Shown one piece after another: positions 4,127 to 34,169 of a stretch of DNA of 37,445 nucleotides. The number at the start of each line of letters is the position of its first letter. The first letter of the stretch is position 1. Both the position numbers and the translations under genes were made by a program. The notes below the pieces were generated by a model. That model ran no database searches, had not been told where the DNA came from, and saw only the letters and a program-made list of their open reading frames with translations. Source of the stretch: Candidatus Omnitrophota bacterium (lineage in GTDB: Bacteria > Omnitrophota > Gorgyraeia > Gygaellales > Profunditerraquicolaceae); contig JAQTQG010000013.1 in NCBI GenBank assembly GCA_028712375.1, positions 1 through 37,445 on the forward strand. The letters run 5' to 3'.

Positions 4127-5683
4127 TCAATCTTTTAAAAGTTTATATTCTATACTGTCCACCAAAGCCTGCCAGCTGGCTTCAATGATGTTCTCATGGA
4201 CTCCGATTGTGCTCCAGGTGTCTTTTTCGTCTTGGGACTGAATTAATACTCTTACCCTGGCGGCAGTACCCGCTTTTTCATCCAGCACACGCACTTTAAA
4301 ATCAGATAAATGCATTTTAGCTAGCGTTGGATAAAAATCTTTAAGTGCTTTACGTAAAGCATTGTCTAATGCGTTTATCGGGCCGTCACCTTCAGCAGCA
4401 GTGTGTTCTTTTACCCCGTTAACCTTTAATTTAATCACGGCTTCCGAAGTAATCTTTTTATTGCGCCCTTTTTCAATAACTACCTTAAACCCTTCCAGCT
4501 CGAAAAATTTCTTGAATTTTTTAAGAGATCTTTGCATTAATACCTGAAAAGATGCTTCTGCTGCTTCAAACTGAAAACCTTTATGTTCCAAAGCTTGCAC
4601 TAATTCCAGGATTTTTTTTGTCTGCGGATCGGTTTTACTTAAATCGTAATTTAAGTCTTTTGCCCTTAATAATATTCCGGTTTTGCCTCCTAATTCGGAA
4701 ACCAATATCCTGCGTTTATTTCCGACTAAATGCGGATCCAGGTGTTCATAAGTGAGGGGGTTTTTCATAATCGCATTAATATGCATTCCCCCTTTATGTG
4801 CAAAAGCCGAATCTCCCACAAAAGGTTGTTCATTTTTCAGGCGCATATTGCTGATTTCGCTGACAAAATGCGAAAGATGCGTTAATTGTTTTAATTGCGC
4901 GTCTGAAATACAATTGATCTTCAATTTTGTTTTCAGGTTAGCGATAATCGGAATTAAATCCGCATTTCCGCAACGCTCACCGTAACCATTAATCGTCCCT
5001 TGAATCATGGTTGCCCCGGCTTCAACCGCAGCTAAAGAATTAGCAATCGCTACTCCGGAGTCGTTATGGCAATGAATCCCCAATTCAGCTTTAACCATTC
5101 CTTTAATTTCTTTAGTAACAGAAGCTATCTGGCTGGTAAGAGTCCCCCCGTTGGTATCACAAAGACAAATGATAGAACTGCCGGCATCAGAAGCAGCAAT
5201 CAAAGTTTTTAAAGCGTAGTCTTTATTGGCATGGTAAGCATCAAAAAAATGCTCTGCATCGTAGAACACTGGAAATCCCTTTTTAACGAAAAAATTAACG
5301 CTGTCAAAAATCATTGCCAGATTTTCATCCAACGTGGTTTTTAAAACTTGCGTTACATGAAAATCCCAGGTTTTTCCGACAATAGTAATTACCTGGGCTT
5401 TTGATTTTAAGAGAGCCAAAAGATTATTATCCTGGTCTGCCGAGATATTAGGCCTGCGGGTCATACTGAAAGCGGCAATTTTAGCATTCTTAAGCTGACA
5501 GCGGCTTATTTTTTCAAAAAATTCTTTATCTTTGGGATTTGACCCCGGCCAACCACCCTCAATAAAATGTATGCCGACTTTATCCAGCTCTTCAGAGATG
5601 CGGATCTTATCCATCACGGAATAAGATATCCCCTCTGCCTGGGAACCATCTCGTAATGTGGTATCATACAATTTTATTGTCAT
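4127..5683 (-). CDS. cimA: (R)-citramalate synthase
   Basis: The 518-residue protein belongs to the LeuA/CimA/HCS family: YDTTLRDGSQAEG at residues 6-18 is the catalytic Arg-Asp motif, and HCHNDSGVAIANSLAA holds metal-binding histidines. The segment FIEGGWPGSNPKD is typical of the CimA branch rather than 2-isopropylmalate synthase. The C-terminal third has the look of the LeuA regulatory dimer domain (for example AEGDGPINALDNALRKAL). Known role: pyruvate plus acetyl-CoA gives citramalate, leading to 2-oxobutyrate and isoleucine without threonine deaminase. A ribosome-binding site, AGAGG, precedes the ATG. It lies 51 bp downstream of lysC. Isoleucine feedback on the C-terminal domain is family knowledge, not visible here. 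Confidence 0.92.
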   Translation of the reverse strand: MTIKLYDTTLRDGSQAEGISYSVMDKIRISEELDKVGIHFIEGGWPGSNPKDKEFFEKISRCQLKNAKIAAFSMTRRPNISADQDNNLLALLKSKAQVITIVGKTWDFHVTQVLKTTLDENLAMIFDSVNFFVKKGFPVFYDAEHFFDAYHANKDYALKTLIAASDAGSSIICLCDTNGGTLTSQIASVTKEIKGMVKAELGIHCHNDSGVAIANSLAAVEAGATMIQGTINGYGERCGNADLIPIIANLKTKLKINCISDAQLKQLTHLSHFVSEISNMRLKNEQPFVGDSAFAHKGGMHINAIMKNPLTYEHLDPHLVGNKRRILVSELGGKTGILLRAKDLNYDLSKTDPQTKKILELVQALEHKGFQFEAAEASFQVLMQRSLKKFKKFFELEGFKVVIEKGRNKKITSEAVIKLKVNGVKEHTAAEGDGPINALDNALRKALKDFYPTLAKMHLSDFKVRVLDEKAGTAARVRVLIQSQDEKDTWSTIGVHENIIEASWQALVDSIEYKLLKD

Positions 5684-11211: not shown

Positions 11212-11571
11212 TCAACCTTTCTTAAGATAATAACCGATTGTTTCACCGATTACTTTGCGGTGCTTTTCATCTACTGCTAAAAAAGCAAGCCGCGTATCAT
11301 AAATCACGCCCCTGGTAATTTCACTTGATTCTAAAACTTTAGCAATAGTCATAATCGGGTCAGGATCAAAAGGCAGGCGAATTTCAAGGGCTAAATTTGT
11401 TCCAACCGGAAACTGGCAATTAGTAGTTAAAAGCATTCCGCCTAAGCTTAAATTTTTAGTCTGGGAGATATCCGCATTACTATTATTCGGAATAACCCGG
11501 TACGAAACAATAAATCTTCCGTTTGCGCGGGGAAATTTTCTTTTTTCCGGACCAGTATATTCTTTTGTCAT
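11212..11571 (-). CDS. PilZ-domain protein
   Basis: The 119-residue protein is essentially a single PilZ domain. The c-di-GMP-binding signature is intact: RKFPR at residues 11-15 supplies the RxxxR arm, and NLSLGG supplies the D/NxSxxG turn. The rest is beta-rich (LALEIRLPF, GVIYDTRLAFLAV). PilZ proteins respond to cyclic di-GMP and act on motility, polysaccharide export or cell-surface processes by binding partners. A strong AGGAGG lies upstream of the ATG at 11571. It precedes hom by 3 bp and appears to be the first gene of the long amino-acid operon, an unexpected place for a second-messenger receptor. No output domain is present. Confidence 0.85.
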   Translation of the reverse strand: MTKEYTGPEKRKFPRANGRFIVSYRVIPNNSNADISQTKNLSLGGMLLTTNCQFPVGTNLALEIRLPFDPDPIMTIAKVLESSEITRGVIYDTRLAFLAVDEKHRKVIGETIGYYLKKG

Positions 11572-11643
11572 ATAGCCTCCTGATTAAAAGTATGTTCACT
11601 ATTAATTCGGATACCTTTTTTCTTATCCTCGCTCGCTTTACTC

Positions 11644-11673
11644 GCAAGGATTAAATTCGCGCATTGACTTACT
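11644..11673. repeat. 30-bp direct repeat, copy 1
   Basis: These 30 bp, from the 3' arm of hairpin H1 onward, recur exactly at 11801-11830 beside hairpin H4, an offset of 157 bp. The duplication suggests that the hairpin cluster grew by duplication of a hairpin-plus-spacer unit. Confidence 0.9.
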
Positions 11674-11800
11674 TATACTGTTACAGATCATTTAATACTT
11701 GTTCGCTTCGCTCACAAGTATTAAATTCGGCCATACAACTTAGCTCGCTTACGCTCGCTAAGTTGTGGCTTCATTTATCTTATCCTTGCTCGTTTCACTC

Positions 11801-11830
11801 GCAAGGATTAAATTCGCGCATTGACTTACT
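11801..11830. repeat. 30-bp direct repeat, copy 2
   Basis: Exact copy of 11644-11673, from the 3' arm of H4 into the 5' arm of H5. After the repeat, copy 1 continues into a degenerate sequence, whereas copy 2 continues into the intact H5 hairpin. Confidence 0.9.
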
Positions 11831-11867
11831 CGTACTATCGTACTCGTAAGTCAAGCGCTCATTTAAG

Positions 11868-11941
11868 TCGGGGCGACAGGACTTGAACCTGTGACCTCTT
11901 GAACCCCATTCAAGCGCTCTACCAAACTGAGCCACGCCCCG
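11868..11941 (-). tRNA. tRNA-Pro(GGG)
   Basis: A full cloverleaf is visible on the minus strand. The acceptor stem CGGGGCG pairs with CGCCCCG, and the D arm is GCTC...GAGC. The anticodon stem CTTGA/TCAAG encloses the loop ATGGGGT with anticodon GGG. The T arm is ACAGG/CCTGT with a TTCAAGT loop. The discriminator is A (11868), as expected for proline. CCA is not encoded. Its 5' end is the first base of a palindromic repeat family lying upstream, and its 3' end faces the GA-hairpin cluster. Confidence 0.95.
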
Positions 11942-12117
11942 TTGCATCTCTGAATCTTTTCTTGTGGAGATGCAACGGGACAGGCCCCATCACATCCACA
12001 CAAATTTAAATTATCAAAACCTGAGAAATTTGCAACGGGGCACGCCCCCACAATTACAAATCTCTCATGCTTTTTTCTTGTGGAGATGCAACAGAGCACG
12101 CTCCATCGCATCTCCAC
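11941..12117. repeat. Palindromic repeat family adjoining the tRNA-Pro 5' end
   Basis: Four related inverted repeats occupy the gap between gpsA and tRNA-Pro. N1 (11941-11950 with 11967-11976) is a 10-bp perfect inverted repeat that includes the first base of tRNA-Pro. N2 spans 11964-11999, N3 12023-12066, and N4 12080-12117 with a 10-bp perfect stem. N2-N4 share an inner core related to CGTGCCCCGTTGC, with outer stems that differ but still pair. The same core plus GCATCTC appears in opposite orientation across the tRNA-Pro 5' end (11935-11950). An 84-codon open frame across this region is a by-product of the repeats and the tRNA, not a gene. Confidence 0.8.
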
Positions 12118-25053: not shown

Positions 25054-25083
25054 TCTATACACGCGGCTTGATTTAGGTATCAA
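25054..25083 (-). promoter_or_regulatory. Promoter of tRNA-Met
   Basis: Minus strand TTGATA (25078-25083), an 18-bp spacer, and TATAGA (25054-25059). Transcription would begin near 25047, leaving a leader of about 17 nt before the tRNA 5' end at 25030. A second identical promoter lies at 25196-25225 in the other repeat copy. Confidence 0.65.
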
Positions 25084-25099
25084 GCCGTATTATTTTTTG
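25064..25099 (+). terminator. Hairpin with T-rich tail overlapping the tRNA-Met promoter
   Basis: A 9-bp perfect stem CGGCTTGAT/ATCAAGCCG with a 6-base loop (25064-25087) is followed on the plus strand by TATTATTTTTT. It has the form of an intrinsic terminator for plus-strand transcripts, although no plus-strand gene is near. It also covers the -35 region of the minus-strand promoter. The duplicate copy is at 25206-25241. Function is uncertain. Confidence 0.5.
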
Positions 25100-25137: not shown

Positions 25138-25250
25138 GAGCCGCGTGCTCTATCAGGCTGAGCTACTCCGCCATAAATCTTTATTTACTAATATCTCTAT
25201 ACACGCGGCTTGATTTAGGTATCAAGCCGTATTATTTTTTGTCTTTCGGC
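25138..25250 (-). repeat. 113-bp perfect direct repeat, copy 2, with truncated tRNA-Met
   Basis: Exact copy of 24996-25108. On the minus strand it provides a second promoter (-35 25220-25225, -10 25196-25201) and the first 35 bases of tRNA-Met (25138-25172). It then breaks into the hairpin 25113-25137 in place of the 3' half. A transcript from this promoter would run through the half tRNA and the hairpin into the intact tRNA-Met unit. A more diverged remnant of the tRNA 5' end, AGCGGCGTAGCTCAG, lies at about 25262-25276. Confidence 0.9.
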
Positions 25251-33080: not shown

Positions 33081-33159
33081 ATACCCTCCTTAATATTTTT
33101 ATCCAAAACCCTCACGGACAAAGCAAGCAAGAATCCAGCTTAATTTTTATACACAAAGT

Positions 33160-33182
33160 CCTGGCGAGTGTAACGAGCCAGG
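33160..33182 (+). repeat. GA-type hairpin H7 (isolated, opposite orientation)
   Basis: On the plus strand CCTGGC/GCCAGG forms a 6-bp lower stem with GA/GA inside and an apical GT-GTA-AC. The architecture is that of hairpins H1-H6, but the GA side is on the plus strand, antisense to the flanking genes. It lies in the 114-bp gap between tsaD and the mgtC-like gene, followed on the plus strand by a GC-rich stretch and six T. Nothing else is seen in the gap. Confidence 0.75.
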
Positions 33183-33194
33183 GCCCCGCCTTTT

Positions 33195-34169
33195 TTACAT
33201 ATCCAAATAAAAATCGCTTCTTGCTCCGTGTTTATAGATGTTTGCTCCAAAACCGGCAATCATTGCCGCATTGTCCATACACAGTTTGTTATCCGGAAAA
33301 AAACAGTGTACGCCTGCAAGTTTAGCGCTGGCCATAAATTTTTCACGCAAACAACGGTTCGCGGCCACCCCCCCGCCGATTAACAGATTGGAAACCTTTT
33401 TACGTTTACAGGCCAACAGGGATTTTTTAACTAAAACATTAACCGCGCTCTCCTGAAAGGATGCGGCTAAATCTTTATTTAATTTAATACATTTTTTTTT
33501 GTCCTTCAAATAATATAAAACAGCGGTTTTTATCCCACTAAAACTAAAATCAAGCTCATTTCCCGCCCCTGAGCAAGCAAACTTAATTTTTTGGCTGTTT
33601 CCGCCTTTAGCTATTTTTTCAAGCAAAGGCCCGCCGGGATACCCTAACCCCATAATTTTAGCCACCTTGTCAAAAGCCTCTCCACAGGCATCATCGCGAG
33701 TCTGCCCCAAAACCTGGATATTAGAAAAATCTTTAATATAAAAAAGCGAAGTATGACCTCCGGAAACTACTAAAGCCACAGCCGGCAGCTTAATTTTGCG
33801 GTGACAAAGCAAATTGGCGTAAACATGGCTATAAATATGATTGACTCCCAATATCGGTTTATTTAAAGCCAAAGCTAAAGCTTTAGCAAAAGAGATACCC
33901 ACCATTAATGACCCAGGCAGACCAGGATGAGAAGTAACCACAACCAAGCCTATCTGTTCAGGGGTAATTTTAGCAATTTTAACTGCTTCGGTAAACACAC
34001 CGGCTATGCTTTCTAACTGCATACGTGAAGCAATCTCCGGAATCACGCCTCCATGACGGCTATGTAATTTTAAACTAGTAGCCACAACATTGGCTAAGAC
34101 TTCCTTCTCATTCTTAACGATTGCTACACCGGTTTCATCGCAAGAACTCTCAACCCCCAAAACAATCAT
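33195..34169 (-). CDS. tsaD: tRNA N6-adenosine threonylcarbamoyltransferase subunit TsaD
   Basis: It transfers the threonylcarbamoyl group to A37 of ANN-decoding tRNAs. The ASKHA fold begins with VLGVESSCDETGVAIV. The metal-binding HxxxH is in GVNHIYSHVYA, and LVVSGGHTSLFYI and LLIGGGVAANRCL follow. The C-terminal DNAAMIAGFGA contains the family aspartate. Length 324 is standard. GGAG lies before the ATG. The partners TsaB, TsaC and TsaE are not in the window. The ATG overlaps the stop of a 32-codon ORF by four bases. Confidence 0.96.
   Translation of the reverse strand: MIVLGVESSCDETGVAIVKNEKEVLANVVATSLKLHSRHGGVIPEIASRMQLESIAGVFTEAVKIAKITPEQIGLVVVTSHPGLPGSLMVGISFAKALALALNKPILGVNHIYSHVYANLLCHRKIKLPAVALVVSGGHTSLFYIKDFSNIQVLGQTRDDACGEAFDKVAKIMGLGYPGGPLLEKIAKGGNSQKIKFACSGAGNELDFSFSGIKTAVLYYLKDKKKCIKLNKDLAASFQESAVNVLVKKSLLACKRKKVSNLLIGGGVAANRCLREKFMASAKLAGVHCFFPDNKLCMDNAAMIAGFGANIYKHGARSDFYLDM

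Follow-up and report, generated by a model that had tools for sequence, protein, structure and literature searches.

The window, that is, the whole stretch of 37,445 nucleotides analysed here, is one contig (C25) of a 1.65-Mb Omnitrophota MAG of 63 contigs, and the feature under study is an array of hairpins occupying the gap between a tRNA-Pro gene and a PilZ-domain gene. Scanning the window for hairpins built as a stem of at least 8 bp, GA, a mini-stem, GA and the returning stem, we find six with such a GA/GA internal loop, five of them in the array and one elsewhere; dinucleotide-shuffled versions of the window (100 in all) average 0.02 and never contain more than 1. In the following list, A and B are the two recurrent hairpin forms of this genome, and R1 and R2 are the covariance models of A and B, respectively.

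11212-11571, minus strand: PilZ-domain gene, downstream of the array, its order with tRNA-Pro kept in many relatives
11625-11651, minus strand: hairpin 1, A type, ATCCTTGC-GA-GTAAAGC-GA-GCGAGGAT, R1 match
11652-11679, minus strand: remnant half of a B element (…GTAAGTCAATGCGCGAATTTA), the second half of a 63-nt direct repeat, read from the sequence
11690-11726, minus strand: hairpin 2, A type with the stem lengthened to 13 bp, ATTTAATACTTGT-GA-GCGAAGC-GA-ACAAGTATTAAAT, R1 match
11735-11766, minus strand: hairpin 3, core of a degenerate B element, from the hairpin scan
to about 11720-11778, minus strand: outer arms of hairpin 3, AAAT-GA-A-GCC / GGC-C-GA-ATTT, read from the sequence
11782-11808, minus strand: hairpin 4, A type, ATCCTTGC-GA-GTGAAAC-GA-GCAAGGAT, R1 match
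11821-11854, minus strand: hairpin 5, core of a complete B element, TTGACTTAC-GA-GTACGATAGTAC-GA-GTAAGTCAA
11808-11866, minus strand: the complete B element with its outer GA/GA step (predicted fold), abutting the tRNA-Pro 3' end
11867-11941, minus strand: tRNA-Pro(GGG), left neighbour of the array in the GA-strand direction
33158-33184, plus strand: sixth copy, A type, GTCCTGGC-GA-GTGTAAC-GA-GCCAGGGC, R1 match, just upstream of the start of the minus-strand TsaD gene (33195-34169)

A preliminary description of this DNA had placed five GA/GA hairpins at 11625-11854 on the minus strand, and all five are present there, with lower stems of 8, 13, 10, 8 and 9 bp (hairpins 1 to 5), GA/GA in each, and apical loops of AAA, GAA, GTAA, GAA and GATA, to which the family as a whole adds that loops are mostly GNA or GNNA. 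Its reading that the lower stems differ and yet remain complementary holds as compensatory variation, but the five stems are not independent, with hairpins 1 and 4 contained in a 63-nt direct repeat (11617-11679 and 11774-11836, 90% identity) whose first copy extends into half of hairpin 5. Likewise, the internal loop described as constant is found in all five hairpins, but the constant part is larger, hairpin 5 lying inside a second, outer GA/GA step. The resulting complete B element reads TTAAAT-GA-GCGC-TTGACTTAC-GA-GTAC-GATA-GTAC-GA-GTAAGTCAA-T-GCGC-GA-ATTTAA and gives the best R2 match (11803-11872, 1.9e-20, for a copy that belongs to the R2 training set). Nearly every large ORF in the window is encoded on the minus strand. 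Beyond tRNA-Pro, at 11936-12117, lies a second palindrome family (GTGGAGATGCAAC..GCACGCTCC..GCATCTCCAC; repeats D2/D3, inverted repeats I2 and I5) that is unlike the GA/GA hairpins, and an identical perfect palindrome, CGGCTTGATTTAGGTATCAAGCCG, occurs twice beside tRNA-Met (25064-25087 and 25206-25229).

A 653-kb sample of the genome contains 650 hairpins with 2x2 internal loops, and their most frequent class is GA/GA (31, with the 31 TC/TC hits being the complementary strand), followed by TT/TT with 15. Form A is about 27 nt long, with the consensus RTCCTTGC-GA-GYG(N)NARC-GA-GCAAGGAY and stem variants such as CCCCGT/ACGGGG and CCTGAT/ATCAGG. Form B, about 55-110 nt long, is nested, with two GA/GA steps (ATTAAT-GA-GC..stem-GA-mini-stem-GNA/GNNA loop-GA-stem..GC-GA-ATTAAT), and some copies have a second side hairpin, giving a three-way junction. 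The expectation that a covariance-model search would find further copies was borne out, with R1 giving 46 matches in the genome at E<=5 and 34 at E<=1e-3, and R2 giving 19 at E<=0.1 (all E-values are rough and training copies are included). In other copies the outer GA/GA step surrounds quite different hairpins, or two side by side, in a modular exchange. In some B copies (L170, L172, L190 and L226) the apical loop contains a long, branched insertion (ACCCGAGCTTATCGGAAAGCTCGGTATGCCGCTTTCTGCGGCAA), repeated in L190, and hairpins appear in these copies to insert into hairpins. Tandem 52-bp repeats at C30:28085-28214 (L060 8085-8214) combine an A-type hairpin with a Shine-Dalgarno-like AAAGGAGGA on the opposite strand, placing three hairpins ahead of one gene.

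With respect to pairing, 93.9% of the cells pair in 67 B copies aligned to R2, and we observe 140 cells with double-sided changes, spread over 16 of the 23 pairs, compared with 44.5 in shuffles, none of 500 of which reached that value; these figures come from an alignment fitted to the R2 model, and the cells count sequences and not events. When the alignment is slid out of register only 12-38% is paired. The compensatory variation with pairing kept that had been described for the array is thus seen across the family, on the strength of the B copies; the A-type alignment came from a filter on pairing, and its pairing statistics carry little weight. The left outer GA is invariant (67 of 67 B copies), and the 5'-GA-3'/3'-AG-5' arrangement would be expected to form tandem sheared G.A pairs. 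The two kinds of mismatch are equally rare, with 15 G.T and 18 A.C cells against 1,372 Watson-Crick cells. Since a selected RNA should favour G.U, the constraint looks DNA-level or like arm-to-arm correction, and pairing alone, with G.T and A.C equally frequent, does not tell which strand folds. RNA function was also sought through an asymmetry of wobble pairs, and the same counts gave no asymmetry. The GA strand is predicted to fold more strongly than its complement, more clearly so with RNA than with DNA parameters.

The repeats are widely distributed among relatives. R1 matches occur in 28 and R2 matches in 35 of 39 sampled genomes of the same family, with 0-64 B copies each, and at E<=1e-4 R2 also matches 51 of 117 genomes sampled from the phylum as a whole. 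In GTDB genomes, a 23-base pattern taken from the 5' half of B was found in at least 113 stretches from about 55 assemblies, and all those listed are Candidatus Omnitrophota, which is strong but not exhaustive evidence that the B pattern is restricted to this phylum. Several of the listed loci agree in position, score and contig number with matches in the same-family genomes, such as L170 with G025:C96 and L195 with G026:C43. The same pattern had no match in viral contigs, and the array had no similar DNA in plasmid and phage records; a viral or plasmid origin was rejected on these grounds.

The preliminary description had proposed comparing orthologous loci for presence and absence, and we find junctions that are filled here and empty in relatives. 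At rplO-secY (C34:5127; the gene names are a reading of the translated flanks and not the result of a family search), a unit of about 80 bp, consisting of a GC-rich hairpin and B, is present here and lacking in seven relatives. At C27:19771, a start and a stop codon are separated by a 97-bp unit (B and a GC-rich hairpin); in six relatives these codons are a few nt apart with no unit, and in a seventh, G048, an A-type hairpin sits exactly there. Near C34:10129, G061 has another unit, with an outer GA/GA step around GTCCGCCA/TGGCGGAC. The gap between tRNA-Pro and PilZ measures 295 nt here versus 44, 41 and 42 nt in G055, G044 and G063, and G047, G053, G057 and G058 have different B elements close to a tRNA-Pro 3' end; loss from some lineages is a possible alternative at this locus. 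Filled junctions typically hold B together with a variable GC-rich hairpin, and it is this comparison between species that points to movement. At three junctions we found no target duplication longer than about 3 nt, a length at which a 2-base TA duplication would be indistinguishable from the AT outer stem. The secY-like ATG follows the inserted element directly (CATTAAATG; C34 near 5100-5190, L004 and L061), with no evident Shine-Dalgarno sequence, and an ATG is directly abutted by the element in many other B copies too.

Placement was assessed for 116 B copies on named Omnitrophota contigs, with simple ORF calling in which some starts were called inside the element, and only 2 of the 116 lie inside an ORF of at least 100 aa. 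Measured from the 5' end of the GA strand, 76 copies have a start codon on the opposite strand no more than 150 nt away, which in 67 of them is no more than 25 nt away, and 16 copies have a same-strand stop codon within 150 nt. The gene-side end of these antisense copies is often exactly at the Shine-Dalgarno sequence or the ATG, and other B copies sit after tRNA 3' ends, as in the window. For copies outside the window, the genes on either side usually run antisense to the GA strand: of the 81 copies whose neighbours agree, both neighbours are antisense in 62 and sense in 19. On contig 1 of G056, six strong B copies switch strand together with the coding strand and the GC skew near 430 kb, indicating that the strand bias follows the direction of coding or replication; the two coincide almost completely on this contig, so that transcription and replication are not separable there as causes of the bias. 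About 100% of the coding on this contig is on one strand per replichore (L313-L345). Several B copies directly follow a tRNA 5' fragment (GCGCCTGTAGCTCAA and similar; L127, L129, L195, L205, L206 and L235), and in L195, L206 and L235 the fragment recurs downstream of B, as if the D-arm had been interrupted and the tRNA start duplicated.

A dispersed family of A and B repeats, with GA/GA steps and mostly GNA/GNNA loops on one strand, is thus placed at gene ends with an orientation bias and fills junctions that are empty elsewhere, and we consider it likely that the array is a cluster of copies from an Omnitrophota-wide family of palindromic repeats that is mobile but non-autonomous. Further copies exist, their stems covary and no known REP or terminator family matches them, on each count the opposite of what the preliminary description had said would speak against its hairpin family. 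Of the two explanations that it had offered for the compensatory variation, the better fit is copying by a process that recognises structure, rather than selection on RNA. The units would spread as whole folded units, and a putative trans-acting nuclease or recombinase would read the shape of the hairpin (stem, tandem G.A step and stable loop) and not the sequence of the stem, so that stems may drift while still pairing. Because the GA/GA and GNA/GNNA features lie on one strand, what is recognised may be DNA in single-stranded form or an arm of an extruded cruciform. Intergenic gaps are often only a few nt long, and insertions that survive would for that reason directly adjoin start codons, stop codons or the ends of tRNAs; arrays such as that of the window may arise by repeated insertion and duplication in the permissive gap after tRNA-Pro. 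The mobilising enzyme is probably not an IS200-like (Y1) transposase. The scheme as a whole, a shape-reading transposition in which a putative non-Y1 enzyme recognises tandem sheared G.A pairs and GNA/GNNA loops in one strand and places whole units into gene junctions, phylum-wide and with no target duplication, we put forward tentatively, as a possibility.

An alternative account, which we regard as unlikely, holds that the repeats are cis-acting RNA structures, leader or intercistronic, that are kept for the expression of neighbouring genes (translation-start context, RNase processing or transcript stability), with their spread being secondary. The position of the antisense copies, close to start codons and often exactly at the Shine-Dalgarno sequence or ATG, would suit such a role, as would the stronger folding predicted for RNA than for DNA. 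In addition, the rplO-secY insert cuts secY off from its old upstream context, and since secY is presumably an essential gene, the insert has to be compatible with initiation. However, the mRNA carries the TC strand in most copies, for which the weaker fold is predicted, the orientation is reversed in 19 of the 81 copies with agreeing neighbours, G.U wobbles are no more frequent than A.C mismatches, and there is no Rfam match. No common function is evident among the neighbouring genes (tRNA-Pro, PilZ, TsaD, secY and others). Given that the GA strand is usually antisense outside the window and that G.T is not commoner than A.C, an expressed RNA element is not indicated.

It seems to us quite improbable that the repeats are REP-like elements moved by an IS200-family (RAYT/Y1) transposase since lost from many genomes. 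A mismatched hairpin, the lack of target duplication, strand asymmetry and intergenic sites all resemble REPs, the E. coli RAYT requires mismatches at the edge of the loop (PMC3733652), and Y1 genes occur in 30 of the 39 same-family genomes. Against this, the ends carry no GTAG or CGTC tag, and neither R1 nor R2 has a match in the 3-kb stretches at 22 Y1 loci. The 178-aa Y1/RAYT-like transposase gene of this genome is flanked by long palindromes of its own (GTAGGTGACGTTTAAACGTCACCTAC and GTAGGGGACGTTTAAACGTCCCCTAC; L031 1183-1230 and 1726-1777), a REP-like set distinct from the GA/GA family. The 9 genomes without a Y1 gene include the two with the most copies, and none was found in genomes with 64, 64, 34, 20 and 19 B copies, several of which are incomplete assemblies that could hide such genes (G030 and G036 have 64 copies each, at 98% and 65% completeness, and G032 has 34). 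Y1 gene number and copy number are negatively correlated (Spearman's r = −0.36, P = 0.025, not corrected for kinship), and this, with the lack of copies at the 22 Y1 loci, led us to reject RAYT/Y1 as the mobiliser. The GA strand lies mostly opposite the coding, G-rich strand, the reverse of what a single-stranded lagging-strand-template scheme would give for it; a bias in this direction, contrary to the simplest expectation for a GA strand inserted into the template of lagging-strand synthesis, further weakens an IS200-like scheme. Tyrosine recombinases, of which 2-5 are present in 17 of 19 genomes and the strongest are XerC/XerD-like, were likewise rejected as the mobiliser, since their counts do not track copy number across the 19 genomes. 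No parent element of the repeats was found among the Y1 and tyrosine recombinase families.

That there is no mobility at all, with template switching in replication and arm-to-arm correction keeping the palindromes and local tandem duplication building the array, is hardly credible, for although compensatory changes almost without wobble intermediates fit arm-to-arm correction and tandem duplications are present (63 nt, 52 nt and a tandem copy in L195), these processes cannot on their own account for units of related sequence at so many unrelated junctions in many species, and correction between the arms would be expected to remove the GA/GA asymmetry, yet the GA/GA step is the most constant feature.

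The mobile repeat family that we favour occurs across a phylum that is uncultured and little known, and it links a motif specific to one strand (tandem G.A and GNA loops) to mobility. Its enzyme, if found, would show how a recombinase reads shape rather than sequence. That an essential operon, rplO-secY, tolerates an insert directly adjoining a start codon has implications for translation initiation in Omnitrophota, and the repeats are usable as markers for assigning metagenome contigs to this phylum. Among open-licence PMC papers we found none on palindromic repeats of Omnitrophota or on the GA/GA motif, and the family of GA-stepped hairpins is new as far as could be found there; an earlier description elsewhere is possible.

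Concerning known systems, we agree with the earlier view that these hairpins are not terminators, as the stems are followed by AAG, AAT, TCC and similar in both orientations; an intrinsic terminator was rejected because no T run follows the stems in either orientation. They also belong to no named family by Rfam, with no match at the gathering score in the array and none at E<=1 for 11560-11867. Mini-hairpins of the type d(GCGNAGC) are extraordinarily stable, and from their sequence the GNA/GNNA loops and 5'-GA-3'/3'-AG-5' steps would fit these and the tandem sheared G.A motifs, which are structural motifs and not, like the A/B repeats, a genetic family.

In a wide sense, REPs are short, palindromic, extragenic and multi-copy sequences with a common motif (PMC12306157), and all of this is found in the A and B repeats. 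In common with REPs and REPINs, they are short intergenic palindromes with many copies per genome, compensatory stem variation, internal mismatches and patchy copy number. In the GTAG and CGTC super-families of REPs, however, one end bears a conserved, unpaired tetranucleotide, GTAG or CGTC (PMC3733652), and near 67 B copies these tags are only sporadic, 1-5 per side and strand; the commonest 4-mer is CTCC, which occurs 13 times on the left and is complementary to the Shine-Dalgarno sequence of the neighbour. The A and B repeats also differ in having no RAYT link, although CGTC REPs are likewise without a dedicated transposase (PMC3733652), and B is larger and branched, with two nested tandem GA steps. 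Palindromic bacterial MITEs such as ERIC, RUP and Correia are non-autonomous and intergenic, cluster and insert into one another, and some affect transcripts (PMC10969869). The A and B repeats share the first four of these properties but have ends that differ by a GA step (TTAATGAGC / GCGAATTAA, the imperfect inverted ends of B) rather than perfect terminal inverted repeats, and no parent insertion sequence was found among the Y1 and tyrosine recombinase families.

Integron attC sites are reported to be recognised in a folded, single-stranded form; their stems vary, and structure sets the choice of strand (PMC2727003). Unlike these, the A and B repeats lie in core operons and not in cassette arrays, and tyrosine recombinase counts do not follow their copies. 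The mitochondrial GC clusters and double-hairpin elements of yeast, fungi and sponges are described, in the portions consulted of PMC4478555 and PMC2800124, as mobile intergenic palindromes with hairpin merging, compensatory substitutions and an unknown enzyme. The A and B repeats likewise merge hairpins modularly and vary compensatorily, but they differ in genetic system and sequence, and those portions report no tandem GA step. Both the tag and the RAYT link of REPs are lacking, and the repeats may or may not be MITEs, since a TA duplication would be hidden in the AT outer stem and the Y1 and tyrosine recombinase families yielded no parent element; we therefore file the A and B repeats as small mobile palindromic repeats outside any named family. 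They are like REPs and MITEs in behaviour and like the mitochondrial elements in the merging of hairpins.
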